A stretch of DNA of 46,231 nucleotides, from positions 1 to 46,231 of the forward strand of contig CAJXCW010000006.1 in the NCBI GenBank assembly GCA_913051705.1, in the 5' to 3' direction. The notes beneath the pieces are model-generated. The model was not told the origin of the DNA. It did not search any database and saw nothing but the letters and a program-made list of their open reading frames with translations. Numbering within the stretch: the stretch's first letter is position 1; each line of letters begins with the position of its first letter. Positions 131-45,745 of the stretch are shown here, piece by piece. The position numbers were made by a program, and so were the translations under genes. The DNA comes from an uncultured bacterium. Its GTDB lineage: Bacteria > JAAXHH01.

Positions 131-1450
131 ATGCCCATCCAACTGAAACCTAAAGAAATTCAGGCGTTCAAGCGCCATCTTGAGGACCTGGGCCTGCCGT
201 CTGTGGCGACGTATCGAGCCTGGTGCCAGGACCATGGGTTTGATCCGGCGGCGAAGAAGCACTGGCGGGACCGGCGTCAGGAACAACTGGCGGCCAGACG
301 GATGGGCACAAAGGATGAAGATGAGGACGCGCTGAAGGCACATATCGCAGCACTGGGACTCGACAGCACCTCTGAATACCAGATATGGTGCCGGACGAAC
401 GGGTTCAGCGGAAAGCTGTACAAGACGCCGTCGCAGCGGGTGCAGGAACGCCGTATGCTGGGGCAGCTGCGTCGTCAGGCCCAACAGGCAGGCAGTCTGT
501 GTCATACGCGGAAGACGGGTACGATCGAGCAGATTTATGCCGGTGATCTGGATGGGGAGCATCCGGCCCATCCATACCTGCATATTATTCACAACCATTT
601 CCAGACCCTGCGTGCGGCAGACCAACCGGATATTGCCGATGCCTATCTGGCGCAGCCGCAGCCTGATTTCACCATGAAGGGCCGAACGGTCGATTCCATG
701 CTGGAACTGGTGGAAGACCGACACGGGGAAAAGCTTGCGGAGATGTGGAACGACAGCGATGGCGAATGGCCCGGCACCTGGACCAGTGGCATGCCTATGA
801 CCGCACAGAATATACGGGACTGGCATGATCGGGAAGAATATCTGACCGTCCATGTGTGGGATGCCGGAGATAAAATTGCCGGGTACTGTTCTCTGATCCA
901 TAAGGAGGACGAAGATGAGGTGGTCTATCTCCCGTTGCTGAATGTATCGCCACATTTTCAAGGCAAGAGTCTGGGCCGGAAAATACTGGTCAACGCGGTA
1001 GAGAAAACTATTGACGAGAAAAAATATCGACTCGATCTGGACACCTGGTCGGGCAATTTCAAGGCGATGGCGGCGTATAAGCGAACCGGTTTTTTCTGGG
1101 ATGTCGGCCCCTGGCCATTGCTGCGTAACTTTATGCCGGCCATCCTGCAGATGCCGTGTACCCGGTACTTTTTCGATAAACACGACTGGTACAGGACCTT
1201 GCAGGGAGACTTAACGCACGTGCCGGATGATGAACAGTGGGATGGGCTGAATGTTTTTATCTATCGATTCGATTCAGGTGATGATCAGTTGACAGTCTGG
1301 GCGGATCGGGAGGCCCGGTGTATCACGGCGGTGGATACGGCCGAGGCGTTTGTCGCTGCGACAGTAGACCACGCTGCGATGGAAGCGGTGCTGGCATGGA
1401 CAGTGGATGTGATCGCGGCCTGGGAGAAAGAAGAAAAGAAAAAGTGGTGA
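131..1450 (+). CDS. GNAT-family N-acetyltransferase with duplicated N-terminal module
   Basis: This 439-residue protein has a GNAT core at roughly residues 245-325. The acetyl-CoA loop is seen as VSPHFQGKSLGRKIL (from about 273), followed by an AYKRTGF segment typical of the last GNAT helix. The substrate cannot be predicted. The N-terminus holds two related modules of about 45 residues: LGLPSVATYRAWCQDHGF (around 21-38) and LGLDSTSEYQIWCRTNGF (around 75-92). The C-terminal 110 residues match no domain I recognise. The start has no clear Shine-Dalgarno sequence. The stop codon lies inside a perfect 16-bp tandem duplication. A 352-residue frame on the opposite strand is a shadow. Confidence 0.85.
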   Translation: MPIQLKPKEIQAFKRHLEDLGLPSVATYRAWCQDHGFDPAAKKHWRDRRQEQLAARRMGTKDEDEDALKAHIAALGLDSTSEYQIWCRTNGFSGKLYKTPSQRVQERRMLGQLRRQAQQAGSLCHTRKTGTIEQIYAGDLDGEHPAHPYLHIIHNHFQTLRAADQPDIADAYLAQPQPDFTMKGRTVDSMLELVEDRHGEKLAEMWNDSDGEWPGTWTSGMPMTAQNIRDWHDREEYLTVHVWDAGDKIAGYCSLIHKEDEDEVVYLPLLNVSPHFQGKSLGRKILVNAVEKTIDEKKYRLDLDTWSGNFKAMAAYKRTGFFWDVGPWPLLRNFMPAILQMPCTRYFFDKHDWYRTLQGDLTHVPDDEQWDGLNVFIYRFDSGDDQLTVWADREARCITAVDTAEAFVAATVDHAAMEAVLAWTVDVIAAWEKEEKKKW

Positions 1451-1474
1451 TCTGGTGAAGTGGTGATCTGGTGA
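1443..1474. repeat. 16-bp perfect tandem duplication at the GNAT stop codon
   Basis: The unit AGTGGTGATCTGGTGA occurs twice head to tail at 1443-1458 and 1459-1474. The first copy contains the stop codon of the GNAT gene and the second immediately precedes the ABC-exporter remnant. It belongs to the group of word arrays found at gene 3' ends across the window. Confidence 0.85.
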
Positions 1475-1579
1475 GTTGAAAATCTTAAAGATGGTCATAT
1501 CGAGGCGCAGGGTACCCTGGACGACTTGCTGAAGAAGGGCGAAGAGATGCGGCAACTGTGGAATATGATGATCTCGTAG
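1475..1579 (+). pseudogene. 3' end of an ABC exporter ATP-binding gene (remnant)
   Basis: A 34-codon open stretch reads like the extreme C-terminus of an ABC exporter nucleotide-binding domain: [16 protein letters not shown], then [10 protein letters not shown], then a TAG stop. In ABC exporters this segment follows the H-loop (DG-I-E-GTH-ELL). No Walker A, signature or Walker B precedes it: upstream are the GNAT gene and a tandem duplication. It has no start codon and is in the same frame as the GNAT gene. I infer that deletion or rearrangement left only the tail of the gene here. Confidence 0.7.
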
Positions 1580-1601
1580 GTACAAAATTAAATAAATTCA
1601 A

Positions 1602-1627
1602 AGATTCTCCGGACGCCCGGAGAATCT
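1602..1627. terminator. 11-bp hairpin after the ABC remnant
   Basis: Perfect arms at 1602-1612 and 1617-1627 around a four-base loop form a GC-rich stem. There is no T-run after it, so a factor-independent terminator is uncertain. It lies 22 bases beyond the stop of the ABC-exporter remnant, where the original gene's terminator would be expected. Confidence 0.45.
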
Positions 1628-1760
1628 CGACTGTATAATAGAATATTGATGTTTATTAAAAATAACTTGGCATCAGGGAAAGAATAATCTATGCTGCTCT
1701 CTGATATAACAGAAAGCGTAATTCGGCAATATGCCGACCGTTCATCCATTAACTGATCTT

Positions 1761-2597
1761 ATGCTTATCTCCAGCCCCTCCAACCCACGCATCAAACAAA
1801 TCCGCGCCCTGTCCCAACGGAAAACACGGCGCGAGACCGGCCTGTTCTTTGTAGAAGGTATTCGTCCAGTGGCCGAAGCCGTTGCGCTACAGGCAGACAT
1901 CGATATCCTGATCGTCGCCCCGGAATTACTGCGTAGTGATTTCGGACAGGAAACGGTGCGGACCGCGGACCAGGTCGGCATTTCAACCCTTGAAGTCAGC
2001 GAGACGGTATTTCAAACGCTCTCCCGTAAGGATGGCCCTCAGGGGCTTGGCGCCGTAGTTCGGCAACGATGGGAAACATTAGAGGCAGTACAGCCGGGCG
2101 ATGAACTGGCCTGGGTCGTCTTGGAAGATGTTCAGAATCCGGGTAATCTGGGATCGATACTTCGTACGTGTGATGCGGTCGGCGCAGCGGGTATCATCCT
2201 GCTGGGCGACACCACCGACCCTTACGATCCGGCTGCCGTCCGCAGCAGTATGGGCGCCATTTTCTCACAACGCCTGATCCGAGCGACGTTGGACGCCCTG
2301 ATAACATGGAAGCAGCAACATCACCTGACCATGATCGGTGCCTCCGATTCGGCGGAAATCGACTATCAAGCCATGCCCTATGGACCACCCATTCTGCTAT
2401 GCATGGGCAGCGAACAACACGGCCTGTCGGATACCCACACAGCCGCCTGTGACGACACCGTACGCATTCCCATGGTCGGCCGCAGTGATTCGCTGAACCT
2501 GGCTGTCGCCACCAGTGTGATTTTATACGAAATATTCAACAAATGGCGGGCAAACGAACAAATCAGACAATCGGAAAATCACCAAATCACCAAATGA
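1761..2597 (+). CDS. TrmH/SpoU-family RNA 2'-O-methyltransferase
   Basis: This is a SPOUT-class methyltransferase transferring a methyl group from SAM to a ribose 2'-OH in rRNA or tRNA. The N-terminal substrate-binding part (SNPRIKQIRAL, then FFVEGIRPVAEA) is typical. The knot motifs are present: EDVQNPGNLGSILRT (motif 1), then LCMGSEQHGL and IPMVGRSDSLNLAVA (motifs 2 and 3). An upstream ATG at 1731 would add ten residues, but homologues usually start near MLISSPSNPRIK, so 1761 is preferred; neither has a strong ribosome site. The last 15 residues (after FNKWR) are encoded by an A-rich repeat array rather than by family sequence, so the natural 3' end was probably replaced. Confidence 0.9.
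   Translation: MLISSPSNPRIKQIRALSQRKTRRETGLFFVEGIRPVAEAVALQADIDILIVAPELLRSDFGQETVRTADQVGISTLEVSETVFQTLSRKDGPQGLGAVVRQRWETLEAVQPGDELAWVVLEDVQNPGNLGSILRTCDAVGAAGIILLGDTTDPYDPAAVRSSMGAIFSQRLIRATLDALITWKQQHHLTMIGASDSAEIDYQAMPYGPPILLCMGSEQHGLSDTHTAACDDTVRIPMVGRSDSLNLAVATSVILYEIFNKWRANEQIRQSENHQITK
2540..2595. repeat. A-rich word array overlapping the methyltransferase 3' end
   Basis: Variants of the words ACAAATC and ACCAAATC recur here, for example two consecutive CACCAAAT units just before the TGA stop. The array supplies the final codons and the stop of the methyltransferase gene and ends at the ribosome site of the creatininase gene. Confidence 0.6.
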
Positions 2598-2607
2598 AGG
2601 AGTCCCC

Positions 2608-3363
2608 ATGCCGACCACCCCCCAATGGCGACACTACCATGAACTGCGCCCCGACGAACTGGCTGTCCTGCGTGATGAAAACCCCGTCGCCTTCTGGCCG
2701 CTTGGATTGCTGGAACACCACGGCTGGCACCTGCCGGTCGGTTTCGACGGCATCAAGGCGGAGCGGCTCTGCATCCGCATCGCCGAGCGCACCGGCGGGG
2801 GGATTCTGCCGGTCATGTGGTGGGGAACCGGTGGTGGACACGATGCCTTCCTGTGGACCCACTACCAGCCGCCCGAAGCCGTAGCAGCCATGCTGACGAC
2901 GACCGTAGAGCAGTTGATTGCTTTCGATTTCCGGGTGATTGTCCTCATGGCAGGACATTATCCATGGCAGGGCATTCTGGACGACTGTCTGCCTGCCATT
3001 CAGAATGCCCACAAGGATATCACCTTGCTGTGGGGTACCGAGGCCTCCATCGGCGGGGACGCCGTACCTTTGCCTGGTGATCATGCCGCGAAAGAGGAGA
3101 CCTCCTACGGCCTGGCGCTCTTTCCCGAACTGGTAGATATGGACGCCCTCATGCCCGGCAGAAACGAAGCCGCTGCCTGGCCTGCCGGTCGCATGCCTCC
3201 AGAAGGAGAACGCCATCCCGGCGTCGTCTTCGAGGCGCATGATCCGCTCTTCGCCCAATTCGGCGAGGACGCCCGGCAGGGGTCGGCCGAACGCGGCGAG
3301 GCAGGGCTCTCGAAGTTGGAAGATTATCTGGCCGGTGTGATCCGTGAGGCCATCAAAGCCTAA
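2608..3363 (+). CDS. Creatininase-family amidohydrolase
   Basis: This 251-residue protein has the metal-binding signature of the creatininase family (PF02633): PLGLLEHHGWHLPVGFD with Glu36, His38 and Asp47, GGGHDAF near 76, AGHYPW with His117, and the acidic GDHAAKEETS near 158-166. The family hydrolyses cyclic or linear amides (creatinine, formamides in cofactor pathways) with two divalent metal ions; the substrate here is unknown. A strong AAGGAG lies seven bases before the ATG. It follows the methyltransferase by ten bases and may be cotranscribed. Codons are richer in G/C at third positions than in flanking genes. Confidence 0.88.
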   Translation: MPTTPQWRHYHELRPDELAVLRDENPVAFWPLGLLEHHGWHLPVGFDGIKAERLCIRIAERTGGGILPVMWWGTGGGHDAFLWTHYQPPEAVAAMLTTTVEQLIAFDFRVIVLMAGHYPWQGILDDCLPAIQNAHKDITLLWGTEASIGGDAVPLPGDHAAKEETSYGLALFPELVDMDALMPGRNEAAAWPAGRMPPEGERHPGVVFEAHDPLFAQFGEDARQGSAERGEAGLSKLEDYLAGVIREAIKA

Positions 3364-3431
3364 GGATGTGCCCTGTATTAAATTCCATACGCACCCTGTC
3401 TTAAAATAAAGACATACGTTTCAACGCCCCG

Positions 3432-3457
3432 AAATATAGACTTCAAAGCCTATATTT
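3432..3457. other. AT-rich hairpin downstream of the creatininase gene
   Basis: The arms AAATATAG and CTATATTT enclose a ten-base loop about 70 bases after the creatininase stop. It may help end transcription, but no T-run of useful length follows. The remainder of 3364-3627 shows no gene that I can support. Confidence 0.35.
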
Positions 3458-3627
3458 TAGCGGCATGTATAGTTTTAGCTACATCATTTCCTGCCGGACT
3501 GGATTGGTCGCTGACCTTCCGGCCATTTGTTTATGGTCATCAAGCGCTTTAGCCTTGATGTTGGCACAGGGTTTGCCTTTACTCAGTAGAAGTATAGTGG
3601 TCGAAATGCTGCGAGTACGGAGCCGAT

Positions 3628-3888
3628 ATGTTATCGTTATTGTATAATCGAATGTGTGCGGTTTTTGGCGTCTTGCTGTTTTCAGGGGCTGTCATAACTG
3701 TACCGGTAAACGCACAAACGGATACCGATGAAAACTACAATGATCTCTTGAAGGACAGTTTCCGACTTCTGCCTGATCCGAAAGGCGCGTTTGTTTCCTC
3801 TGATAATTTCATGGTGCGTTACGCCAATGCGGTAAGATATTTAAACGATACGAAATACATTGAATTGGCGCTACGACCGGATGATTAA
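3628..3888 (+). CDS. N-terminal part of an exported protein, probably truncated
   Basis: This 86-codon frame has GGAG at a good distance from its ATG, a hydrophobic stretch (MCAVFGVLLFSGAVITVPVNA) and a plausible signal peptidase site VNA|QTDTDE, leaving glutamine at the new N-terminus. The mature part, about 55 residues, is unlike any family I know. The last residues are antisense to the C-terminal codons of a DUF433 remnant on the other strand, so I infer that the gene was cut and joined to foreign sequence near 3870. It may be transcribed, but a full-length product is unlikely. Confidence 0.45.
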   Translation: MLSLLYNRMCAVFGVLLFSGAVITVPVNAQTDTDENYNDLLKDSFRLLPDPKGAFVSSDNFMVRYANAVRYLNDTKYIELALRPDD

Positions 3889-4027
3889 GCCGTTGACTGG
3901 CAAATGTCAAACTGGCTGATATATCCTCACGTTCCAGATCAGGTAATTCTTCAAGTATTTGTTCCGGAGATAATCCATTGGCGAGTAAATCCAGTACATC
4001 GGTGACCCGAATACGCGCTGCCTCCAA
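3871..4027 (-). pseudogene. DUF433-family fragment
   Basis: The translation RIRVTDVLDLLANGLSPEQI, followed by LEELPDLEREDI and ending LNHPVVA, matches the C-terminal two thirds of DUF433 proteins, small DNA-binding-type domains that often accompany a PIN-type toxin partner. The conserved N-terminal segment (the GKP-IRGTRI block) is missing. The apparent start is only a TTG, and a different frame runs upstream. Past HPVVA the frame enters antisense sequence of the exported-protein fragment. I take it as one piece of the 3.6-5.0 kb mosaic. No PIN-domain partner is visible. Confidence 0.7.
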
Positions 4028-8006: not shown

Positions 8007-8772
8007 CAAACATCACCCTGTTTTGATATTCTATCGCTTCATTACATCGGCATTCCAACGAATGCCGTTTGTTTTTATACTCAGTATCGGGGCTGTTCCG
8101 ATCATGGCTCAGGAAGCCTCTATAGATCAGGCCGTCTCCTGGTACCAGGCAGGTGAATGCAGCCGGGCTCGAGAAATCTTCCTGCAGATCATTAAAGACC
8201 AGCCCGAACATCCGGTTGCGCTTTATCATCTCGGTCGTATTGAGACAGCTCACCTGGCGGCAGAGCAATACTATCTTCAGGTTCTGTTGCATGCGCCGCA
8301 ACACCCCTATGCCGATGATGCGCTGCTGGCTGTCACGCGTCTTCAATATCAGCAAGGACGTTATCAGGACGCTGTAAAAGCCTGCAGTCGTCTGCTGGCT
8401 TCCTATCCGAATACCGACCTCAAAAATGAAGTCCGCTACTGGCAGGGTAGGGCATTGCTGGCTAACAAGCAGCCCGCCCTGGCCCGATTGACTTTCCTTC
8501 AACTCCTCACCGTTGCGCCTGAATCCACCTTCATGATGCCGACCCGTCTTGGCATCGCAGATACCTATCGGGCAGAAAATGATTTCATCGAAGCCGCCAG
8601 GTTGTATCTGAAATTCGAAACCGATTTCCCGGATAGCGATAGTCTGCGTATTGCCTTGTTACGAGCGGGTGAAAGTCTTGAAGCCTCCAGTCGAACCAAA
8701 GAAGCCGGCCATGTCTATCAACGATTGATCAATCGGTTCCCGGATAGCCCGGAAGCAGGCAGGGTAAGGTAG
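7999..8772 (+). CDS. Exported tetratricopeptide-repeat protein
   Basis: This 257-residue protein starts at an ATG overlapping the last codons of the IHF/HU gene. A hydrophobic segment (MPFVFILSIGAVPIMA) ends in a signal peptidase-like site IMA|QEASID, leaving an N-terminal glutamine. The mature part is built of TPR-like helical pairs: AVSWYQAGECSRAREIFLQI, PVALYHLGRIE, LQYQQGRYQDAVKACSRLL, YWQGRALLANKQPALARLTF, IADTYRAENDFIEAARLYL, and SRTKEAGHVYQRLINRFPDS. This resembles YbgF/BamD-type periplasmic scaffolds. The partner is unknown. The TAG stop is directly followed by a short GGATGGAAGGATAAA word array. Confidence 0.8.
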   Translation: MTNKHHPVLIFYRFITSAFQRMPFVFILSIGAVPIMAQEASIDQAVSWYQAGECSRAREIFLQIIKDQPEHPVALYHLGRIETAHLAAEQYYLQVLLHAPQHPYADDALLAVTRLQYQQGRYQDAVKACSRLLASYPNTDLKNEVRYWQGRALLANKQPALARLTFLQLLTVAPESTFMMPTRLGIADTYRAENDFIEAARLYLKFETDFPDSDSLRIALLRAGESLEASSRTKEAGHVYQRLINRFPDSPEAGRVR

Positions 8773-8817
8773 GATGGAAGGATAAATACACCGATTGCGT
8801 AACATCAGCTCGTTAAT

Positions 8818-13029: not shown

Positions 13030-13056
13030 AAAATCATATAAAAATCATAATTGAAC
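13030..13056. repeat. AAATCATA word array after the ABC-F remnant
   Basis: Two variants of AAATCATA occur directly after the stop codon of the ABC-F remnant. The same word family is seen in the 13440-13526 array on the far side of the MerR gene. Confidence 0.45.
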
Positions 13057-13068
13057 AATCAACCTGGC

Positions 13069-13439: not shown

Positions 13440-13526
13440 ATCCCTGTTAAGGTGATTGTTGAATTATAAATTATGATTGATTTTCAATCACCTAATCATA
13501 ATTCATAATTCAAGAATCATAATTCA
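13440..13526. repeat. AT-rich word array with inverted arms at the der 3' end
   Basis: Variants of ATTATGATT and ATTATAA on the left (13450-13485) are followed by the reverse-complement words (AATCATAATTCATAATTC and variants) on the right (13487-13526). The array reaches into the TGA stop codon of der (13524-13526). The transcript of der could fold these arms into a long imperfect hairpin before merR. Confidence 0.75.
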
Positions 13527-16476: not shown

Positions 16477-16542
16477 GGTAGAAAACGATAAGACTTTAAA
16501 TCATAATTTATAATTCATATATTCAAAATTTAGACCTATTAT

Positions 16543-17262
16543 ATGACTGATTCCGATCTCTACACCTTCGATACAAATGGATTTCTTGTCGTTGAAGATG
16601 CACTCAATTCGGCCGAAATAACGGCCATAAATGAAGCGCTCGATAGGGAATGGACCACACGGCGTGATACGTTTTACACGCGTTCGGATAATACCTGGCA
16701 AAGTGTCCGCGCGATGGAGGTGGAAACAGCCTTTGACGACCTGGTTATCCATCCATCTGTCTTCGAGTTACTCAAAGGCATCATGTCGGATGATATCGCC
16801 TTCTCCGAACTATCGGTTATTCTGAAAGCGCCCGGAGCCGATTCGCACGCGCGGTGGCATAAGGATGTCGACTATCAGGGCGCACCGATGTCACAATCAT
16901 TACTACTTATTTCGTGTATCTATTACTTGTCAGATGTAATGGCGGACAGTGCCTGTTTTGCTGTGGTGCCCGGCAGCCACCGCTTTAATCGATCTTTGCC
17001 GGCCGTCGATCACGTTAATGATATGCCTGCTCATATACCGCTGACCGGCAAAGCTGGCACAGCGATTCTCTTCCACGGCAATCTGTGGCATGCAGCCTAT
17101 CCCAGTCGTTCCGATCAGGCGCGACGAACCGTGCATATATACTATTGTCGCCCCTGGATGAAACCATCAGGCCATACGAAAATTCCACCACGCCTGATCG
17201 ATTCAGCCGAAACCGATTTCATGAAAACATTTTATCACACAAATTGGGGCGCAGTAAAATAA
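16543..17262 (+). CDS. Phytanoyl-CoA dioxygenase (PhyH) family oxygenase
   Basis: This 239-residue Fe(II)/2-oxoglutarate oxygenase has the facial triad His106 and Asp108 (RWHKDVD) with the distal His183 (GNLWHAAYP), and the 2-oxoglutarate-binding Arg194/195 (ARRTVHIYY). PGSH near 143 is the usual turn. It starts [13 protein letters not shown], typical of the family. The substrate is unknown. It ends 28 bases before leuC, so it may share a transcript with leuCD; a functional link is not obvious. AT-rich word repeats and a palindrome precede it, with no clear ribosome site. Confidence 0.9.
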
Positions 17263-18711: not shown

Positions 18712-19299
18712 ATGCCGGAACCATTTACCCAACACGAAGGCCGCGTCGCCCCACTGGACCGGACCAATGTAGATACCGATCAGATTATACCGAAGCAATT
18801 CCTGAAACGAATTGAGCGTACCGGTTTCGGTCAGTTTCTGTTCAACGACTGGCGTTTTTTACCGGATGGATCGCTCAATACAGCCTTTGTCCTGAATGAA
18901 CCACGCTATCAGGGAACCACCATTCTGGTAGCTGGCGACAATTTCGGCTGTGGCAGTTCACGTGAACATGCCCCATGGGCCCTGCAGGATTATGGTTTTC
19001 GGGTGGTCATCTCGCCATCGTTCGCAGATATTTTCTACAATAACTGTTTTAAAAATGGACTACTGCCCGTCGTATTATCCGAAGAAACGATCCGGCGGAT
19101 ACTCGCCGATGCATCCGCGCAGGAGATCTATACGCTCTCAGTAGACCTCGAAGCGCAGACCATCTCCGAACCGGACGGAACGGCACACCTGTTCGAAGTT
19201 GATCCATTCCGCAAAAAGTTTATATTAGAAGGGCTGGACGAAATCGGCTGGACCCTGCAGTATGAAGAAGATATTACAGCGTATGAAAACAGCAGGTAG
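18712..19299 (+). CDS. leuD: 3-isopropylmalate dehydratase small subunit
   Basis: This 195-residue swivel-domain partner of LeuC carries [37 protein letters not shown] and [16 protein letters not shown]. The frame is open from 18688, but the ATG at 18712 ([16 protein letters not shown]) aligns with other LeuD starts and has GGAG upstream. It follows leuC closely, so the two are translated together. The last codons and TAG fall inside a word array that continues as a 13-bp hairpin downstream. Confidence 0.96.
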
Positions 19300-19355
19300 G
19301 CAGGTGGGCAAAAAAGCAAACCATCTCTTGCCCACCTGCCCACCTCCACTTGCCC
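19291..19355. repeat. GGCAGGT word array with 13-bp hairpin at the leuD 3' end
   Basis: The left arm 19299-19311 (GGCAGGTGGGCAA) and right arm 19328-19340 are exact reverse complements; further copies of the word flank both arms. The leuD stop codon is within the array. It probably forms a strong RNA hairpin, with only a short A/T tract after it. Confidence 0.85.
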
Positions 19356-19673: not shown

Positions 19674-19952
19674 AGGGTGACTATCTGCATTTGTGCCGAT
19701 GAAACAATCCTGAGTTTACATCATGGCCGGCAGACGAAACCCTCTATACAGGCGTCACATCGAACCTGATACAGATAGCCGGTAGGTTCCGCAAGTAGCC
19801 GATAGGTCCTGCACCTCCTCGAAGATCCCCATTTGCTCATAGTCTATATTATTTCAATATCGACAAGGATTTCCCATTGACAAAATTTCGTGGCAGGCCT
19901 AGTTATGGTTTGGGAATTTTTGAAATTGTATTGCAAAATAACAGGAGACGGT
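19674..19952 (+). other. Gene-free stretch with a degenerate direct repeat
   Basis: No gene is supported here. Two imperfect copies of a unit of about 21 bases (TAGCCGGTAGGTTCCGCA and TAGCCGATAGGTCCTGCA) lie near 19780-19822. The rest holds the promoter of the next gene. Confidence 0.4.
19877..19905 (+). promoter_or_regulatory. Candidate sigma70 promoter of the ceramidase-like gene
   Basis: TTGACA (19877-19882) and TAGTTA (19900-19905) are 17 bases apart, about 50 bases before the preferred start codon. The -35 is consensus and the -10 weak. Confidence 0.45.
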
Positions 19953-21392
19953 ATGAGCCAGCATATTTTGCCCACGCCGCTTGGACGGTGTGTTCTGGGC
20001 TTTGGTCGGGTTAATGTGACGCCGCCGGTGGGTATCTATCATCGATGTTGGGGCGCCGCCCGCCATGATGCGTCTACCGGTGTCCATCGACCGTTAAATG
20101 CGACGGTATTGGTCATCCAGGATCCACAATCAGAAGAACATATCCTTGTTACGCTTGATTTAGGCTGGTTGCGAGAACGAGAGATCGACCGCCTGACCCA
20201 ATCCGTCTCGGAACGGATTGAAGTGGCGCCGGAACGTGTGGTCATCACGTTCTCTCACACGCATGCCGGCGGCAATTTCGACCTGGATCGTATCCATGAT
20301 GAAGGCGGGGATCTGATCCCAGGTTATCTGGACTCACTGCCGATCGCTATTGCCGATGCAATCGAGCAAGCCCGGTCGAACAAACAGCCCGTGGAGCTGG
20401 CCTACGGCGTCGGTCATTGTGATCTGGCATGGAATCGAGACTATTGGGACGAGGAGACGCAGCAATATGTTTGCGGCACCAATCCGGAACGGGACGGAGA
20501 CGATACGGTTATGGTGATCCGGGTCACAGATCGGAACGGGTATCTGATCGTTACACTTATTAATTACGGATGCCATCCCACAACACTCGCCTGGGACAAT
20601 ACGCTGATCAGCCCTGACTATATCGGCGCCATGCGTGAGGTCGTCGAGCGGGATACCGGCGTGCCATGCGTGTTTTTGTTAGGCGCCTGTGGTGACCTCG
20701 GCCCCAAAGACGGTTATGTCGGCGATACGTCCGTGGCGGACCGTAATGGCCGTCAACTTGGCTACGCGGCCCTGTCGGCTCTCGAAGCGTTGACACCGCA
20801 CGGCACCGAGATGCAATATGCCGGACCGGTTACTTCCGGTGCGACCATCGGGACGTGGCGACATGAACCTCTGAATGAGGCAAGAACGCACGTTGTGAAT
20901 CACTTAACCACAGAATACATGACCTTTGAACTCCCGCTTGTGGATCTTCCGGCGCAGGCGGAACTGGATGAAAAGCTGGCGGATTGGCAACAACAGGAAG
21001 ACGCCGCACGGCAGGCAGGACAGGACCAGGAAGCTGCTGACTACCGCGCCCAGGTAGAACGCACCCGACGGGCTATGCGTCGCGTTGAAGGCGTGACCCC
21101 TGGTCAACCGGCGCCATATGGCGTGACTCTATGGCGCCTCGGTGAAGGCGTTTTTGTCCTGGTAAGCGGAGAGCCGTACAACCTCCTGCAACGCGAACTG
21201 CGAGTCCGATTTCCTGATACGCCTATCATCGTCGGTGTCCTTTGCAATCGGGGTACAGGCGGTTATCTCTTGCCTGCCGATGAATATGGCAAAGGGATCT
21301 ATCAGGAATCAGCTGCGGTTATAGGACCGGGAGGTCTGGCTCTGGTCATCGACAACATATCAGAACAATTGAGAACATGGGAAATGCGGTAA
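19953..21392 (+). CDS. Neutral ceramidase-like metal-dependent hydrolase
   Basis: The protein has 479 residues from ATG 19953, which has AGGAG seven bases upstream; the frame is open from 19890. It resembles the catalytic domain of neutral/alkaline ceramidases: GFGRVNVTPPVGI at the start, ITFSHTHAGG with the two zinc-binding histidines, LINYGCHPTTL, LLGACGDLGP and a late CNRGTGGYLLPADEYGKGIYQ that fits the family's conserved C-terminal part of the domain. No signal peptide is seen, so it may act in the cytosol on an amide substrate other than ceramide. A charged segment near 340-385 may be coiled. The TAA stop sits within a word array. Confidence 0.82.
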   Translation: MSQHILPTPLGRCVLGFGRVNVTPPVGIYHRCWGAARHDASTGVHRPLNATVLVIQDPQSEEHILVTLDLGWLREREIDRLTQSVSERIEVAPERVVITFSHTHAGGNFDLDRIHDEGGDLIPGYLDSLPIAIADAIEQARSNKQPVELAYGVGHCDLAWNRDYWDEETQQYVCGTNPERDGDDTVMVIRVTDRNGYLIVTLINYGCHPTTLAWDNTLISPDYIGAMREVVERDTGVPCVFLLGACGDLGPKDGYVGDTSVADRNGRQLGYAALSALEALTPHGTEMQYAGPVTSGATIGTWRHEPLNEARTHVVNHLTTEYMTFELPLVDLPAQAELDEKLADWQQQEDAARQAGQDQEAADYRAQVERTRRAMRRVEGVTPGQPAPYGVTLWRLGEGVFVLVSGEPYNLLQRELRVRFPDTPIIVGVLCNRGTGGYLLPADEYGKGIYQESAAVIGPGGLALVIDNISEQLRTWEMR

Positions 21393-21452
21393 GCAGTAAG
21401 CAGTGGAAAAACTATGGACCTCGCAGTCCTGCCTACTGCCTGCTGCCTTCTG
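21385..21452. repeat. AGCAGTA word array with inverted arms
   Basis: Left words (GGTAAGCAGTAAGCAGTGG, 21387-21406) and right words complementary to them (GCCTACTGCCTGCTGCCTTC near 21431-21450) face each other. The stop codon of the ceramidase-like gene is the TAA of the first word. The array sits between two co-directional genes. Confidence 0.8.
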
Positions 21453-22592: not shown

Positions 22593-22664
22593 GGGATGGA
22601 AGGGTGGAAGGGTGGAAGGTATATCATCCATATTCTTCCCATCCAACCTCCCATCCTTCCACGC
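22593..22664. repeat. GGATGGAAGGGT word array with inverted arms between convergent genes
   Basis: Left words (GGATGGAAGGGTGGAAGGGT) begin four bases after the TAG stop of the Gfo/Idh/MocA gene. Complementary words (CCCATCCTTCC-like) follow at about 22634-22664 and run up to the 3' end of the convergent phzF-like gene. It likely serves as a two-way 3' end structure. Confidence 0.85.
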
Positions 22665-29132: not shown

Positions 29133-29136
29133 AAGC

Positions 29137-29207
29137 AGGATGGAAGGGTGGCAGGATGGAAGGGTGACAGGAGATATAGATTTTTTCTCCTATCCTCCAT
29201 CCTTCTG
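29137..29207. repeat. GGATGGAAGGGTGG word array with inverted arms at the porV 3' end
   Basis: Two units GGATGGAAGGGTG-CA occur at 29141-29166, and CTCCTATCCTCCATCCTTC, complementary in style, follows near 29186-29204 after a T-rich loop. It starts about five bases after the porV stop. The word is the same family as at 22593 and 8773. Confidence 0.8.
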
Positions 29208-29381
29208 TCCAACCACTCAAATGTGTGATATCACTCATATTATTGTCATATGAAGCACCATATTTACTGTTTCACGACTTTGAATCCGTAATCCCCAACC
29301 ACATAGTGCTCGATGTGTCCCCGTAGGGGATCATCCATCTTAAATCCACAATTGATATTACGCCCGCCCCGGGATCTATTA

Positions 29382-33466: not shown

Positions 33467-33469
33467 GTA

Positions 33470-33622
33470 AGAAGAAAGTGAAAAGTACAGAGTAAAGAGT
33501 GAAGAGCGAAGAGATAAAAGAAAGTTCCGAGTTCTGAGTTCTGAGTAAAAAGAAAGTGAAGAGTAAAGAGTGAAGAGTGAAGAGTTAAAACATAGCACAG
33601 AGAACAGAGTTCTGAGTTCCGT
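33470..33622. repeat. GAAGAGT / GAGTTCTGAG composite array, two tandem blocks
   Basis: Each of two blocks of about 75 bases starts with GAAGAGT-like words (AAAGAGTGAAGAGCGAAGAG; AAAGAGTGAAGAGTGAAGAG) and ends with GAGTTCTGAG-like words. It begins four bases after the stop of the first DUF5683-like gene and runs into the start region of the second. There is no complementary arm here, unlike the other arrays. Confidence 0.85.
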
Positions 33623-34325
33623 GTTGAAAGAAAAAACAGGGCCTTACGGAGAAACCAGGTGGGGTATCTTACGGTGGATGGTGGGCTTAATCATTTCTTT
33701 TGTCATGATAAATTCGGCATATAGTCAGGAGGATATTGACCTTTCCTCTCCAGCAGATACGTCCTTCAATCACCCATCCAAAAGAACGGCCATCCTCCTC
33801 TCCCTCGCCCTCCCCGGTCTTGGTGAGGCCTATGGGGGCAACTGGGCTCGCGCACGGACTTTTTTCATCACCGAGGGCATCACCTGGACCAGTTTCACGG
33901 CCTTGCGGGTGTACGGTGGCTGGCGTGCCGATGATTACCGTGTATATTCCGCCGATCATGCCGGTGTCAGGTTGACCGGTCAGTCTGATTCCTTCTTTCG
34001 GGATATCGGCTCCTTCTCCGGCAGTGAGGTGTTCAACACTGAGCAATTGCTTACGCAGCGGGCGCAGGCGCAGGTCTACACGGGGGTTAACACTTGGGCC
34101 TGGGACAAGGAGGCCTCGCGGAAGACCTATCTCGACATCAGGCGGTCCAGTCGCCGGGCACAGGTCCGCAGTGTATATCTCATCGGTTTTGCCATCTTAA
34201 CCCGCGTAGTCAGTGCCATCGATGCAGGCCGGATTATCGACAGCCGGTCTCCCTCCATGCCTGTATTGAATATGTATTTCCCGCCCGATGGCAGTATTCG
34301 GATGGCTCTTGGATACAGATTCTAA
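33621..34325 (+). CDS. DUF5683-like exported membrane protein, paralogue
   Basis: The frame opens at 33570, but its first 17 residues are encoded by the word array. A GTG at 33621 gives a signal peptide with a basic N-region (RWGILRWMVGLIISFVMI then NSAYS|QED); an ATG at 33678 is an alternative. The mature protein would begin with glutamine. The DUF5683 core is KRTAILLSLALPGLGEAYGG, and the second half contains a hydrophobic VRSVYLIGFAILTRVVSA. It is similar in layout to the gene at 32726, and the two may have arisen by duplication. Function is unknown. Confidence 0.7.
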   Translation: MLKEKTGPYGETRWGILRWMVGLIISFVMINSAYSQEDIDLSSPADTSFNHPSKRTAILLSLALPGLGEAYGGNWARARTFFITEGITWTSFTALRVYGGWRADDYRVYSADHAGVRLTGQSDSFFRDIGSFSGSEVFNTEQLLTQRAQAQVYTGVNTWAWDKEASRKTYLDIRRSSRRAQVRSVYLIGFAILTRVVSAIDAGRIIDSRSPSMPVLNMYFPPDGSIRMALGYRF

Positions 34326-36784: not shown

Positions 36785-36825
36785 GCACGGCGCGCCGTGC
36801 ACCTAACTCACCAACTCACCACTTT
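36785..36825. repeat. 16-bp palindrome plus CTCACCA word array at the M32 3' end
   Basis: GCACGGCGCGCCGTGC (36785-36800) is a perfect palindrome. It is followed by repeated CTCACCAA words (36805-36819) that reach the TAG stop of the M32 gene. The palindrome shares a core with the hairpin at 69-99. Confidence 0.6.
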
Positions 36826-38319
36826 CTACACTTCGTACAACCTGCCGAATTTTTCCTCCATATAGGTCAGGAAATAATCCGCTGACAGCGCTTTACCGGT
36901 CACCTGTTTCACCAGATCTTTGGGGCGATAGGCCATACCCAATTGATGGATATTTTCCCTGAGCCATTCACGTAAAGGTAATAACTCGCCGTGGGCGATC
37001 TGCTCCGTCAGGTCCGGCAGGGCCTGTTTTGCCGTATCATAGAATTGCGCCCCGTACAGATTACCCAGCGTATAAGTGGGAAAATACCCGAAGCTGCCGT
37101 GGGACCAGTGAATATCCTGTAGCACCCCACTTCGGTCATCCGGCGGTTCGATGCCGAAGTATTCTTTCATCTTGGCATGCCATATATCCGGTAGATCGTT
37201 AACCGTATATACATCCGCGAACAGGCCCCGTTCGATTTCAAAACGCAACAGGATGTGGAGGTTGTATGTCACTTCATCCGCTTCGACGCGAATCAGCGAC
37301 GGCGTGACTTCGTTGACGGCGGCATAGAGTTCTTCTTCGGTGACGCCCTGCATACTCTCCGGGAATGTCTCAACGAATTTGGGGTAGAAATAACGCCAGA
37401 ACGCCCTGCTGCGACAGACCATATTCTCCCACATACGGGATTGCGACTCATGGATGCCCAAGGAGACCGATTGCCCTCTTGGCGTCCCTTCGTGATTTAC
37501 ATCCTGTCCCTGCTCATATAGACCATGCCCGGTTTCGTGAATAATGCCGTACAGCGACTGGGCCGGCAAATTCTCGGCATACCGAGTGGTCAGCCGGACA
37601 TCCTGGACGCCCATGTGGGTGCAGAAAGGGTGTGGAGAAATATCCAACCGGCCGGCCTCATAATCGAAACCCATCTGCTTCGAGACCATCACACCGAACC
37701 GGCGCTGATCTTCAACAGGGTAAGTCTTTTTGAGGAAATCGGTACGTGGCTTGACCTCTGAATTCTGTATCCGTTGCACCAGATCCACTGTGGGGCCGCG
37801 TAAGGCCTCGAACACATCGGCTATGTCCTGGGTAGAAGCGCCGGGCTCATATTCTTCCAGAAGGGCATCGTAGGGTTCGTTCTCATAGCCGATGGCTTCA
37901 GCGCTTTCTTTCTGGAGTTTAACCAGTTTTTCGACCCAGGGGGCAAATGAAGGAAAGTCGTTATTTGCACGGGCTTGCATCCATACTTCTATGGCGGCGG
38001 AACTGGTCTCTGCCAGCGCTTTGACCAGGCTGGTCGGTAATTTTTCAGCCCGTTTATGAGACCAGGTGATCTCTCTCAGATTAACCTGTTGATCTAAGGT
38101 AAGTTCTTCAGACCCGGCCCTTTCAATGGCATGGCCCATTTCCTCGGATATAAACCGGGTATGAGCCATGCCGGATAAGGTCGCCAGCTGACGACCACGC
38201 GTCGCCGCGCCCTTTCGAGGCATATAGACCTCCTGATCCCATCCCATCAGAGCCAGCGCCCCATGGATATCACCCACCTCTTGCTGTATAACCATCATTT
38301 GACCATAGTATTTACCCAT
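36826..38319 (-). CDS. M32-family carboxypeptidase (thermostable carboxypeptidase Taq-like)
   Basis: The protein has 497 residues from ATG 38319, preceded by GGGAG; the frame is open eight residues further. The zinc site is His261, Glu262 and His265 in IIHETGHGLYEQG, with the family's ESQSRMWENMV containing the third ligand, and an N-terminal helical lid (ALMGWDQEVYMPRKGAATRG). YFPTYTLGNLYGAQFY and DIHWSHGSFGYFP are further M32 marks. It removes C-terminal residues in the cytosol. It lies 28 bases downstream of the ATP-grasp gene, probably in one operon. Confidence 0.95.
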   Translation of the reverse strand: MGKYYGQMMVIQQEVGDIHGALALMGWDQEVYMPRKGAATRGRQLATLSGMAHTRFISEEMGHAIERAGSEELTLDQQVNLREITWSHKRAEKLPTSLVKALAETSSAAIEVWMQARANNDFPSFAPWVEKLVKLQKESAEAIGYENEPYDALLEEYEPGASTQDIADVFEALRGPTVDLVQRIQNSEVKPRTDFLKKTYPVEDQRRFGVMVSKQMGFDYEAGRLDISPHPFCTHMGVQDVRLTTRYAENLPAQSLYGIIHETGHGLYEQGQDVNHEGTPRGQSVSLGIHESQSRMWENMVCRSRAFWRYFYPKFVETFPESMQGVTEEELYAAVNEVTPSLIRVEADEVTYNLHILLRFEIERGLFADVYTVNDLPDIWHAKMKEYFGIEPPDDRSGVLQDIHWSHGSFGYFPTYTLGNLYGAQFYDTAKQALPDLTEQIAHGELLPLREWLRENIHQLGMAYRPKDLVKQVTGKALSADYFLTYMEEKFGRLYEV

Positions 38320-38347
38320 GGCGGATCTCCCAATATAAAACACATCT

Positions 38348-40391: not shown

Positions 40392-40479
40392 CTATTTAGA
40401 GCCTATCCGAATTCCCTGTGTTCCCTGTGGTTAAATCTCTCCGGTAATTCTGCTATCCGTGTTTTATTTTCAAGGATCA

Positions 40480-41791: not shown

Positions 41792-41796
41792 ATCCA

Positions 41797-42741
41797 CTAT
41801 ATCTCCACCCCTACTTCCGCCGCTACTCGCCGGACGAACGCATTCGCGGCCGGAATTTTCTCTGGTGGGATATGCTCGAACAGCAGATAACCGTCTGGAT
41901 TGATGGCCTGGAAACGCGTAAGAAACGTCTTATAGTCAAGTATCCCTTCACCGGGAACCTCTTCGTCAAGATGAGAGACCAGATCGTTACCGACGCGGAT
42001 GTCTTTGGCATGGCCAATGGGTGAAATGGGACCGAGGCGATCAAAAATATAGTTTAGTTGCGCCGTACTGTTGAACGCCTGATGAATCGACTCAAAGTGG
42101 TTGACCGGATCCATCACCACGCGTATCCGGGACGAGCCGACGCGTTCGATCACCTCAACGCAAATATCTGGATTGCGCATGATAGAGACCACATGGCACT
42201 CCACCACAACCGTCACACCATTGGTTTCGGCATCATCCCCGATTTCACGCAGCGAATCGACAAAACGATCTACACTCTCCGACGTATGGTTGTCCGGATG
42301 GGGCGTCCAGGAACCGGCCGGATTAAGACTGCCGGGACGGATCAGGTGGACACCGGCCTTGAGGTGTCGCGCCATTCGGTTTCCAGCTTGGATTTTATCG
42401 ATGACCCGGCGCCGCACCGTGTCGTCCGGATCGAACAGACATTCCCCATAGAGGAGCAGAAACTGAGCCATCTCCAGGCCAAGCGATTCCCATATCTCGC
42501 ATCCACGCCCGCATTCTTCCTCGGTAACCGTAGTCGGATCACCACCGAAATGGTGGCCGAAACCGGTAAAACCCATCTCAAGAACGCTATCAAACTGATT
42601 GGATGTAAATGTACGGAAATCATTCGGTAGCATATGGACTACCTGAGTACCGGTCACACCGATCATCCTTGTTTCCGTACTCTGATCATCTGCCGCCGGT
42701 TGTAACGTATTGGGCAGCATACCAACAACGCCGAGACGCAT
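41797..42741 (-). CDS. Sugar phosphate isomerase/epimerase-like TIM-barrel protein
   Basis: This 314-residue protein resembles the AP-endonuclease-2/xylose isomerase-like barrel family: MRLGVVGMLPN at the start, HFGGDPTTVTEEECGRGCEI, GVTVVVECHVVSIMRNPD with the metal Glu, VVMDPVNHFESIHQ, GHAKDIRV and LFEHIPPEKIPAA with His and Glu metal-ligand positions. Such enzymes isomerise or epimerise sugars or cyclitols. AAAGGA precedes the ATG. Its 3' end almost touches the glucosidase remnant. Confidence 0.85.
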   Translation of the reverse strand: MRLGVVGMLPNTLQPAADDQSTETRMIGVTGTQVVHMLPNDFRTFTSNQFDSVLEMGFTGFGHHFGGDPTTVTEEECGRGCEIWESLGLEMAQFLLLYGECLFDPDDTVRRRVIDKIQAGNRMARHLKAGVHLIRPGSLNPAGSWTPHPDNHTSESVDRFVDSLREIGDDAETNGVTVVVECHVVSIMRNPDICVEVIERVGSSRIRVVMDPVNHFESIHQAFNSTAQLNYIFDRLGPISPIGHAKDIRVGNDLVSHLDEEVPGEGILDYKTFLTRFQAINPDGYLLFEHIPPEKIPAANAFVRRVAAEVGVEI

Positions 42742-42862
42742 GAGGGTTCCTTTGAAGTGAAGCGTGAAGCGTCATTTTTCTGTAATTCGCCCATATTGTC
42801 AAGACAATTATCCCATTCATGACCGTATACTTTTGAAAACTGGTCTAATCAGGTCATAGTAC

Positions 42863-42944
42863 TGTCATGCCCGAAAGCCTTAATCGGGCATCCATAGCAG
42901 GGATCGGTCATATGGATGCCCGATTAAGGCTTTCGGGCATGACA
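42863..42944. repeat. REP-like element: 34-bp perfect inverted repeat
   Basis: Arms at 42863-42896 and 42911-42944 match exactly as reverse complements around a 14-base loop. Each arm itself contains TGCCCGA-N9-TCGGGCA, a small hairpin, and the GTCATGCCCG...CGGGCATCCA layout of REP-type palindromes widespread in bacteria. The two inverted units form a BIME-like pair. It may be mobilised by a RAYT-type transposase; none is in this window. Confidence 0.9.
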
Positions 42945-43074
42945 AAATGGCTCCAATAAGAAGTGATGTCGAAAGTGTACGGTAGTGAATCATCCCATCG
43001 GGGAATACCATATTTTTGTCCTTTTACCTGCCTGATCATTTGGCTGGCCGGCTGATCTGTTGATTGAAAAACCT

Positions 43075-43140
43075 CCTATCGCTTACCGCTTACTGCCTAC
43101 CGCCTTTTGCTTTCTGCCTTCTGCTATTTTGCCTTCTGCC
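43075..43140. repeat. CTTACCGC / CTTCTGC word array
   Basis: CGCTTAC-CGCTTAC-TGCCTAC-CGCC and then CTTTCTGCCTTCTGC-like words repeat with a 7-base period. The array lies between the REP-like element and the tRNA promoter. Its words match the right arm of the 21385 array. Confidence 0.8.
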
Positions 43141-43155
43141 GCCCCATATTTTCCC

Positions 43156-43184
43156 TTGACTTAAACAGGGCTGTCCCGTATTTT
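43156..43184 (+). promoter_or_regulatory. Promoter of the tRNA-Leu/tRNA-Val pair
   Basis: TTGACT (43156-43161) and TATTTT (43179-43184) are 17 bases apart and lie 42 bases upstream of the mature tRNA-Leu. Confidence 0.5.
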
Positions 43185-43226
43185 TATGGACCCAATATGA
43201 TGCCGGTGATACAGAGTATGTGATAC

Positions 43227-43313
43227 GCCGGGGTGGTGAAATTGGTAGACACAGGAGACTTAAAATCTCCCGGACCTCAATAGTCCGTGCCGGTTCGAGT
43301 CCGGCCCTCGGTA
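43227..43313 (+). tRNA. tRNA-Leu (anticodon TAA)
   Basis: The 87-base gene has an acceptor stem GCCGGGG/CCTCGGT, a D-arm with TGGTGAAATTGGTAGACA, an anticodon stem GGAGA/TCTCC enclosing CTTAAAA (anticodon TAA at 43261-43263), a long class II variable arm and the T-loop TTCGAGT. CCA is not encoded. It is followed after 26 bases by tRNA-Val. Confidence 0.96.
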
Positions 43314-43339
43314 TCAGTTTGGTCATATTAAGATAACAA

Positions 43340-43413
43340 GGGCGCTTAGCTCAGATGGTTAGAGTGCCACGTTGACATCGTGGAGGTCAGTGGTTCGATC
43401 CCACTAGCGCCCA
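43340..43413 (+). tRNA. tRNA-Val (anticodon GAC)
   Basis: The 74-base gene has an acceptor stem GGGCGCT/AGCGCCC, a D-arm TAGCTCAGATGGTTAGA, an anticodon stem CCACG/CGTGG enclosing TTGACAT (anticodon GAC at 43374-43376) and a T-loop TTCGATC. CCA is not encoded. It is cotranscribed with tRNA-Leu, probably. Confidence 0.96.
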
Positions 43414-43597
43414 TTTTATTTTTTCTTCACAATATACGTGTAGCCCAGACCTATGTCGGTGCGGTTCATCAAGCCGGCCAGGCCACTGATCCTACCGGGC
43501 TGCACTGTTTTATTTCCGGCTAATCCTCCAATCTATTTCTTACATGTAGCCGTTCTTGTAACCATTCACCATCTGGTCTTATTTGGAGTGTCTGCTG

Positions 43598-44599
43598 ATG
43601 CCACGAATCTCACGTCCGATCGGCGTAGCAGTTATCGGCACCCGGTTCGGAAATTTACACGCGGAAGCGATATCGGAGATCCCGGAGCGGGCGCGTGTTG
43701 TCGCCATCTGTTCGCGTACCGAAGAACATGCACAGCAGTCTGCCGAGCGCTGGGGGGCGGATCTGGGCACTACTTCCCTGGAAAAGGTGTTAAACCATCC
43801 AGGGGTGGATGCGGTGCATCTTTGCGTTCCCCATCATCTGCATGCGCCCATGGCTATCGCAGCGGCCCGGGCGGGTAAGCACATCCTGACGGAAAAGCCG
43901 ATCGCTGCCACCATGGATGAGGCCGACCGAATGATCGAAGCTGCCGAGCAGGCCGGGGTCTTACTTATGGTGAGTCTCAACCATCGTTTTCTTCGCCACC
44001 ACCAACGCGCGAAAGCACTGATTGATTCAGGGTCCATTGGGGAGATCTTTTTATGTCAAGGAGCGTTCCTGGGGTTCTCGGATATTAAGGGCTGGCGCAT
44101 TGATCCGGTACAGACGGGTGGCGGCGTCCTGATCGACTCAGGCATGCACCGCATCGACCTGCTTCGATGGCTGGTAGGCGAGGTCGTGTCGGTACAGGCG
44201 GAATCCGGTACTTACGTCCATAAGCAGATGGGCGGCGAAGATACGGCCTCGATGTTGCTTCGTTTTGATAACGGCGCTATAGGTCATCTGGTCTGCAGTT
44301 GGGGCATTGAGACACCGACCCGGGAAGAGTCTCTGATGCTCGCCGGTAGAAATGGCACCATCTGGACCGAAAATGCGGACCTGACGTTACGATATACGAT
44401 CGGCCGGCAGCCTGTTGAGCAGGAAGCCTTTCCTGAGGTCTCGTATCCTGATTCCGTGAAACACCTTATCACTCATTTTCTTGATTGTCTCCAACAGGAT
44501 GTCGTGCCCGTGATCACCGCAGAAGACGCCCGTACGGCGCTTCGTATCGCGCAAGCCGCCTACCACGCGATGGAGACCGGGGGAAAGGTGATATTGTAG
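43598..44599 (+). CDS. Gfo/Idh/MocA-family oxidoreductase
   Basis: The protein has 333 residues from ATG 43598, with GGAG nine bases upstream; an earlier TTG is less likely. The Rossmann fold (GVAVIGTRFGNLHAEAIS) has the less usual GTRFGN turn. LTEKPIA near residue 95, LNHRFLRHH near 127 and GGGVLIDSGMHRIDLLRWLV near 180 are family marks. It oxidises or reduces a sugar-like compound with NAD(P). An enolase-superfamily dehydratase follows on the same strand, 51 bases away, suggesting a sugar-acid route. It is only distantly similar to the family member at 21471. Confidence 0.92.
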   Translation: MPRISRPIGVAVIGTRFGNLHAEAISEIPERARVVAICSRTEEHAQQSAERWGADLGTTSLEKVLNHPGVDAVHLCVPHHLHAPMAIAAARAGKHILTEKPIAATMDEADRMIEAAEQAGVLLMVSLNHRFLRHHQRAKALIDSGSIGEIFLCQGAFLGFSDIKGWRIDPVQTGGGVLIDSGMHRIDLLRWLVGEVVSVQAESGTYVHKQMGGEDTASMLLRFDNGAIGHLVCSWGIETPTREESLMLAGRNGTIWTENADLTLRYTIGRQPVEQEAFPEVSYPDSVKHLITHFLDCLQQDVVPVITAEDARTALRIAQAAYHAMETGGKVIL

Positions 44600-44650
44600 G
44601 GATTGATCTGTTGATCGACTGACTTATCGGATGATGCTCAGGAGCCGACT

Positions 44651-45700
44651 ATGAAAATCACAGATGTAAAAGCCGTATATCCGAAGTGGCGCAACAGGGC
44701 CCAGGGCGCCTGGCAATCGCATTTCTGGCAGATCGTGGTGCGGATCGAGACGGATGCGGGCGTGACGGGCTATGGGTATGGCGGTGGAGGGGAACCGGGG
44801 GTGCTGATCATCAACGGGCATCTGCGTGAATTATTGATTGGGAAGACCGTGGGTAGTATCAAGGATATCCGGACGATCTGGGATCATCTGTATTTCAAAT
44901 CATTGCCGTATGGCCGCAAGGGCATCGCGCTCATGGCGCTCAGTGGGGTCGATCTGGCGTTGTGGGATCTGCTCGGCAGGGCCGAAGGCAAACCGGTATA
45001 CGACCTGCTCGGTGGATTGAAGAAGCACCCTGTGCGGGCGTATGCGACAGGCCAGGACTTTGCCCGGGCGCGCGATCTGGGATATACCGCCGTCAAATTT
45101 TCCCATCGGTGGCAATCAGATGCCGATTACGACACAGCTATCGAACAGGCAGGACAGGCGAGGAAGAGATTAGATCCCGACGCGCTGCTTATGATTGACT
45201 GCTACATGTCCTGGGACGCCGAGGTCACGCTGGAGATGCACCACCTTCTAACTGATTACCGGATCTACTGGTTTGAAGATGTCCTCACCCCCGACCATCT
45301 GGACGAACTCGCTGCCCTGCGCCCACAACTCACCCCCGTCCTCCTTGCCGGCGGCGAGCACGACTTCTCCCACCACAGCTTCGCCGACCTCGCCCGTACC
45401 GGCGCCCTCGGCCTCTGGCAGCCCGACCTCACCTGGTGCGGCGGTCTCACCGCCGGCCTGCGCATCCTTGACCTGGCTCGCGCCCACCGCATCCCCGTAT
45501 GCCCCCACCGGGGCGGCGAAATCTGGAGCCTCCACTTCATCGCTGCCACCGACTGTATGGATTTGGCTGAGACACATCCGGCGCGGTGGGATACGCCTGA
45601 GAACCTGCTCTGGATGGATGAACCACGGATGCACGATGGTGTCATTTCGCCGCTGGACAGGCCGGGGTTCGGTGTCAGGTTAAATGAGGAGATGGTGTAG
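44651..45700 (+). CDS. Mandelate racemase/muconate lactonising (enolase superfamily) dehydratase-like
   Basis: This 349-residue protein has the enolase-superfamily plan. Metal ligands are Asp183 (LMIDCYMSWD), Glu209 (YWFEDVL) and Glu236 (AGGEHDFS), with a general base His286 (VCPHRGGE), an Asp259 partner (QPDLTWCGG) and Lys149 in VKFSHRW. This resembles L-rhamnonate-type sugar acid dehydratases. AGGAG lies before the ATG. Residues 211-297 (45281-45540) are coded almost only by C-ending codons (CTC, GCC, ACC), unlike the remainder of the gene, hinting at a mosaic origin. A word array follows the stop. Confidence 0.88.
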   Translation: MKITDVKAVYPKWRNRAQGAWQSHFWQIVVRIETDAGVTGYGYGGGGEPGVLIINGHLRELLIGKTVGSIKDIRTIWDHLYFKSLPYGRKGIALMALSGVDLALWDLLGRAEGKPVYDLLGGLKKHPVRAYATGQDFARARDLGYTAVKFSHRWQSDADYDTAIEQAGQARKRLDPDALLMIDCYMSWDAEVTLEMHHLLTDYRIYWFEDVLTPDHLDELAALRPQLTPVLLAGGEHDFSHHSFADLARTGALGLWQPDLTWCGGLTAGLRILDLARAHRIPVCPHRGGEIWSLHFIAATDCMDLAETHPARWDTPENLLWMDEPRMHDGVISPLDRPGFGVRLNEEMV

Positions 45701-45702
45701 AT

Positions 45703-45745
45703 TATGCTTTTTACTTCGTGCTTCGCCACTTGCCTACTTGACTCT
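45703..45745. repeat. Short CTTCG / CTTGCC word array after the dehydratase gene
   Basis: CTTCGTGCTTCGCCACTTGC and CTACTTGACTCTTGAC form degenerate 7-8-base words starting three bases after the stop codon. It overlaps a possible -35 (TTGACA at 45745-45750, with TACCTT 17 bases on). Confidence 0.45.

Follow-up and report, generated by a model that had tools for sequence, protein, structure and literature searches.

The 46,231-nt stretch analysed here (the window) corresponds to contig C6 of the draft genome G000 (5.45 Mb, 405 contigs, 97% complete, 5.7% contamination), and carries at its gene junctions tandem arrays of degenerate 7-8-base words, which raises the question of what these arrays are, how they spread, and whether they serve the genes beside them. 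The array statistics refer to a sample formed by the window and forty 20-kb stretches of the same genome (846 kb, about 15% of the genome), in which genes were called with a hexamer model and an array score threshold of T>=10 was used. Within this sample we found 139 arrays in 105 kb of intergenic DNA, where shuffles lead one to expect about one, and the period is 7 or 8 in 130 of the 139. This amounts to 1,329 arrays per Mb of intergenic DNA, compared with about 10 per Mb in Markov shuffles (an excess of about 130-fold) and 73 per Mb in coding DNA, so that the initial annotation, which had described such arrays and placed them between genes, holds on both counts. Being tandem, degenerate, made of 7(-8)-base units, intergenic and present many times per genome, they have the properties of STRR or intergenic heptamer repeats, and the likeness to cyanobacterial STRR heptamers that had been pointed out is an apt one. 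Twelve sites had been claimed in the window, nine of which are clear, with Tandem Repeats Finder (TRF) or by eye; the other three, at 8752-8781 (TPR), 13030-13064 and 45708-45749, reach neither detector and are weak or unsupported. An Rfam scan of the window returned two tRNAs and no other family. The features located are listed in Table 1.

Table 1. Word arrays, array hairpins and element copy located in the window.
Position	Strand	Feature	Basis
1443..1474	+	Word array GTGGTGATCTGGTGA with a period of 8/16; it overlaps the GNAT-like gene 131-1450 at its stop codon	TRF; sequence
2560..2597	+	Word array AAATCAGA/AAATCACC in C-rich orientation, ending in the stop codon of gene 1731-2597 (SpoU in the initial annotation) and directly preceding the next start (2608)	TRF; sequence
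13453..13526	-	Hairpin of AATTATG/GGTGATT words, lying between the der stop and the next (MerR-like) gene	TRF; fold z -5.1; relatives
16496..16530	+	AATTCAT/ATAATTC array preceding the gene at 16543, newly listed here	TRF; sequence
19292..19344	+	leuD 3' hairpin: GGCAGGTG array and complementary CCACCTGCCC array	TRF; fold z -4.95
21388..21452	+	3' hairpin after gene 19890-21392: GTAAGCA array and complementary CTGCCTA/CTGCCTT array	TRF; fold z -2.6
22594..22661	+	Hairpin formed by GGAAGGGT and CCTTCCATCC words in a convergent gap, on the Gfo/Idh/MocA side	TRF; fold z -2.9
29135..29210	+	porV 3' hairpin: (GCAGGATGGAAGGGTG) array and complementary CCTCCATCCTTC arm	TRF; fold z -3.6
29298..29336	-	Copy of the 39-nt two-hairpin element at GAT^T; core match of model R3 at 29297-29335, 50.1 bits	cmsearch; covariation
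33467..33633	+	AGTGAAG/AGTAAAG/AGTTCTG words in direct array, following the DUF5683 gene and making up about 2 copies of a higher unit of 71-78 nt	TRF
36805..36821	-	TGGTGAGT array after the stop of the M32 peptidase gene (36826-38343, minus strand)	TRF; sequence
43077..43124	+	CTGCCTT/CCGCTTA array in the divergent gap upstream of two tRNA genes, newly listed here	TRF; sequence

Regarding their position relative to genes, the 3'-end bias that had been proposed is real, but modest and weaker than claimed: of the 117 arrays in co-directional gaps spanning 60 bp or more, 49 begin no further than 20 nt from the upstream stop codon, against 33.9 expected (z 3.2), and in the same kind of gap there is no excess of arrays near the next start (36 vs 33.1 expected). 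The density is lowest in divergent gaps, with 0.92 arrays per kb versus 1.7-2.1 in the other gaps, and in 21 of 115 gaps the first array overlaps the upstream stop codon. Orientation is a stronger rule than stop proximity: G-rich words follow a stop and complementary C-rich words precede the next start. G-rich words prevail in the half of the gap at the stop (53:16) and C-rich words in the half at the start (13:44), and convergent gaps present the G-rich-after-stop pattern from both sides. The complementary second arms seen at several window sites proved to be a genome-wide feature, as 38% of 182 arrays have a complementary partner within the same gap, versus 4% when the partner is sought in other gaps; 11% of these arrays have a direct copy at another place in their own gap. 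At five of the window sites the fold surpasses that of nearly all shuffles (z -2.6 to -5.1).

This layout had been considered unfamiliar, but the GGGAATC and GGGGATT heptamers of Xanthomonas and Nostoc are mostly intergenic and already known to lie 0-50 bp from stop codons on the coding strand (PMC4692102). The GGGAATC-type heptamers are also located within the same distance of start codons on the non-coding strand, overlap stop codons and, in Xanthomonas, often form inverted pairs (PMC4692102). The G000 arrays resemble them in their 7-base units, mostly intergenic location, stop overlap and inverted pairs, and obey the same coding-strand rule near stops with the inverse rule at starts, so that these traits are not new. 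The difference is that in the heptamers of PMC4692102 there is one word family per genus, whereas G000 has many families, of lengths 7 and 8, with words that mostly lack runs of three G, and contains inserted elements. The cyanobacterial STRR and the TAACTGA repeats of Beggiatoaceae (PMC4679880) are likewise intergenic arrays of degenerate heptamers, sporadic across phyla, the TAACTGA repeats differing in that they consist of a single word and are found mostly upstream of start codons.

The statement that words differ between sites is correct only in part, because a small vocabulary recurs: 171 gap-words fall into 80 classes, and the same word is present in 273 pairs of gaps, with 4.9 expected, the commonest being AATCACC/AAATCACC variants, AATTATG, ACCTGCCC and AACTCGG. 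Since the same words recur at unrelated gaps, they constitute a vocabulary of the lineage and are not site-specific. This vocabulary looks different from that of the cyanobacterial STRR, whose words are of the type TTGGTCA and CCCCAGT. Among the relatives, G014 (same order as G000) has many period-7/8 arrays with different words, G001 has a few, and in G002 (genus g3, same family as G000) none was detected at the same threshold in 100 kb. In the stretches L065 and L091-L094 of G014 the arrays are dense, and the words entirely different (ACTCGTC, AATCCAA, CGGGGTT). At the der/MerR junction, a 92-bp gap filled by the hairpin separates the genes in G000, which in relatives overlap (ATGA) or nearly abut. 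Arrays are present in G000 at 9 of 45 conserved adjacent gene pairs, and three conserved gaps are longer there (-4, 46 and 13 bp becoming 92, 112 and 127 bp), the other array-bearing pairs having no clear lengthening.

Outside this group, (GGTGATTT)3 is present in over 100 stretches belonging to many phyla, with loci in Desulfobacterota, Bacteroidota, Cyanobacteria, Cloacimonadota, Acidobacteria and others. With the GGTGATTT word excluded, these other-phylum loci follow the same strand rule (33:10 and 11:28) and display inverted pairing in 40% versus 1%, counts that do not gauge array prevalence, since the loci were picked by a repeat. Arrays of 7-8-base words under one strand rule in several phyla make a general cause worth seeking. 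A common vocabulary across phyla was considered and dropped, as other words are shared no more than reversed controls (7 vs 4), and so was carriage of the GGTGATTT word by phages, for which a single viral contig was found.

A comparison of the gaps with one another by blastn revealed dispersed modules, which the initial annotation had not noticed and of which A and D represent one 39-nt fold, composed of a 4-bp stem, a bulge, a 6-bp stem with a 3-nt loop, GAGC, a short hairpin and GGTT. A covariance model trained on 17 copies (R3) gave 135 matches genome-wide in G000 at E<=0.1, of which 97 at E<=1e-4, and recovered module C, which was outside its training set. The same model has 6 matches in G001, and none among the 14 remaining members of the phylum that were scanned, 13 further bacterial genomes and 14 array-bearing genomes of other phyla. 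Among 80 distinct copies the fold comprises 15 pairs, with 93.6% of pair cells standard, compared with at most 48% paired in slid versions, and changes on both sides are observed in 11 of the 15 pairs. Double-changed cells number 165, versus 56 in shuffles, in this 80-copy alignment, which was fitted to R3; the count from the plain alignment of the training set, A5 (41 vs 17, with the structure derived from the same copies), is for that reason the more independent. The element is, in our view, among the smallest traceable putative mobile DNA elements, with about a hundred or more copies. Module B is a larger, multi-hairpin element of ~83 nt, with 63 matches. Element copies were also seen in pairs, nearly successive at one site with a word or a few bases between them (L295 255-340, L297 234-318, L270 1501-1599) or 93 bases apart (L296 212-382), and in one copy (L315 257-314) the loop of the first hairpin is longer by about 19 bases, which may be another insertion.

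The 39-nt element is preceded by GAT (+G), with about 77 of 83 copies agreeing at each base, and followed by T in 79-82 of 83, and for 56 of 74 copies the context has period 7 or 8. When 39 nt are taken out, 20 copies return to the octamer phase (at least 7/8 matches), the next best length being 38 nt with 8 copies, and the periodicity across the junction is 0.728, above the maximum of 0.670 reached in 500 re-pairings of left and right words. In the case of module B, 7 of 10 copies regain the octamer phase once 83-84 nt are removed, and the words to the left and right match locally, GTTGAT sites joining to TTGTTGAT and GGTGAT sites to TTGGTGAT. The 39-nt element also occurs in a minitransposon, where an empty site in which AATGGAT adjoins TTCCGC (L012/L279) can be compared with filled copies, AATGGAT[GGAAGG...GTGG]TTCCCGC; this is the sole direct empty site, from one minitransposon copy, and could be a precise deletion. 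The minitransposon is ~110-180 nt long, has inverted ends GTCGGCGGAA ... TTCCGCCGAC, and is found with and without the element (L258-L260, L279-L285). In one case, L323 279-346, the element is nested, and removal of 39 nt leaves an almost canonical outer copy, and in G001 it lies within a different larger repeat, again with GAT and T at its flanks. At the level of sequence, the precision of insertion, the conserved structure, the nesting and the copy number can be taken as established.

The small dispersed repeats (SDR) of Nostoc and its relatives are reportedly 21-27 nt long. The elements described here, of 39 nt and 83-84 nt, fall outside this range and, in a comparison made by description, differ also in their target, GAT^T, and in their non-cyanobacterial host. 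Like the SDR, the 39-nt element is short and dispersed, and its secondary structure is conserved through compensatory changes; it is likewise embedded in heptamer arrays or in minitransposon copies and, in the single case of L323, inserted into a copy of itself. That the host is not a cyanobacterium we infer from its type IX secretion-type PorV protein and from the small size of its phylum among the genomes compared. Small elements within heptamer arrays and minitransposons are known from Nostoc (Elhai et al. 2008, Genome Res. 18:1484, as cited in PMC3116915); what appears to be new is the insertion of 39-nt and ~83-nt elements in arrays outside the cyanobacteria.

Another system for comparison is that of the REP/REPIN sequences with RAYT (Y1) transposases (PMC3116915), which are also short, non-autonomous hairpin elements dispersed in intergenic DNA, but in G000 the element sits in tandem words and no Y1_Tnp gene accompanies it. 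A search for Y1_Tnp (PF01797) gave none in G000 and one copy in G001, with the control genomes positive, and RVT_1 (PF00078) was absent from G000, G001 and G014 and present in G002, whose sample contains no arrays. The Y1 transposase of REPIN/RAYT systems and the reverse transcriptase of retroelements were thus rejected as movers, the two best-known mover kinds being either absent or missing from the ~97%-complete draft. The elements would move as folded single-stranded DNA or RNA, with the enzyme acting in trans. Reports of very small mobile elements come, to our knowledge, mainly from cyanobacteria, and we know of no mover for them. This would be a second, unrelated lineage with such elements, here larger and in about a hundred copies, and the defined target GAT^T, the empty site, the nested copy and the copy number make target choice, intermediate and enzyme testable.

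The sequence evidence leads us to regard as probable a two-layer model, in which tiny structured mobile elements land in arrays of the STRR type. In the first layer, a small lineage-specific vocabulary of 7-8-base words, lengthened and shortened probably by replication slippage, would be distributed over many gaps, often as an inverted pair, resulting in transcripts in which the stop is followed in turn by G-rich words, a spacer, the complementary C-rich words and the next start, and the arrays would accumulate at gene junctions because junctions tolerate them. In the second layer the arrays would act as landing pads, where the 39-nt and ~83-nt elements insert between GAT and T, a site present in every copy of many words (GGTGATTT, GTTGATTT, GACTGATT), with a mover probably supplied in trans. 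Of the element-driven process initially suggested, the part that stands is the insertion of structured micro-elements in the arrays, but an origin of the arrays themselves from an element is conjectural.

The complementary arms, the G-rich-first orientation on both sides of the gap and the strong folds are also what would be seen if the inverted arrays were functional 3' ends, with a hairpin that terminates transcription or shields the mRNA from 3' exonucleases and with selection keeping the pairing, and in Xanthomonas citri transcript starts and stops are indeed commoner at G4-forming heptamer repeats (PMC4692102). We consider this reading unlikely. Beyond the last array, T-runs are no commoner than in the background (0.06 vs 0.06), which makes classical terminators unlikely and led us to reject the arrays as intrinsic terminators, leaving that earlier idea without sequence support; several arrays lie within conserved gene junctions such as der/MerR, some directly before the next start codon, and most gaps, as well as the array-free relatives, manage without arrays. 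The order of variant units does not match between the two arms in a permutation test (p 0.56, with only 38 informative hairpins), on account of which arm copying or exact compensatory pairing of the arms was dropped, and this result together with the lack of T-runs argues against selection as precise terminators. Most likely the arrays are neutral or selfish rather than terminators, but pure neutrality leaves the G-first orientation unexplained, which could reflect a function at the RNA level.

It seems quite improbable that the arrays have separate origins, each through polymerase slippage at its own locality with no spread between sites, because unrelated gaps share words 50 times more often than expected and inverted second arms are not produced by slippage alone, even if period 7 is dominant in long simple repeats of many bacteria, for which a slippage origin has been proposed (as cited in PMC4679880). 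The words GGTGATT/GTTGATT flank most element copies, in line with the period-7/8 context described above, and one could take the arrays for the ends of the structured elements, carried along on moving. We hold this to be very improbable, given that most arrays have no element, that elements are found also in the minitransposon, in another element and in the different G001 repeat, in each case at GAT^T or a similar site, and that the flanking words vary between copies yet agree across each junction. Beyond the two-layer model, it is conceivable, if doubtful, that the 39-nt/~83-nt elements are inserted exactly at GAT^T by an undescribed system that uses neither a reverse transcriptase nor a Y1 transposase of the known types, and that this kind of activity also seeds and spreads inverted-pair arrays in many phyla.

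Other repeated modules were noticed beside the arrays. In a Paludibacteraceae MAG (L145, L162, L175), recurrent GC-rich modules such as GTCGCGCAGCGACTTTATTCGGGCTGCGCCC flank arrays and are perhaps an analogous element system in Bacteroidota, and in Desulfobacterota MAGs (L159, L160, L149) a common long module, GTAAGCGTTTACAGGGCACCGCATCTGC..., is located soon after stop codons, adjoining word arrays. In the window, the divergent gap upstream of the tRNAs contains a perfect 28-nt inverted repeat at 42866-42941 (CATGCCCGAAAGCCTTAATCGGGCATCC ... complement), which is probably another dispersed element.
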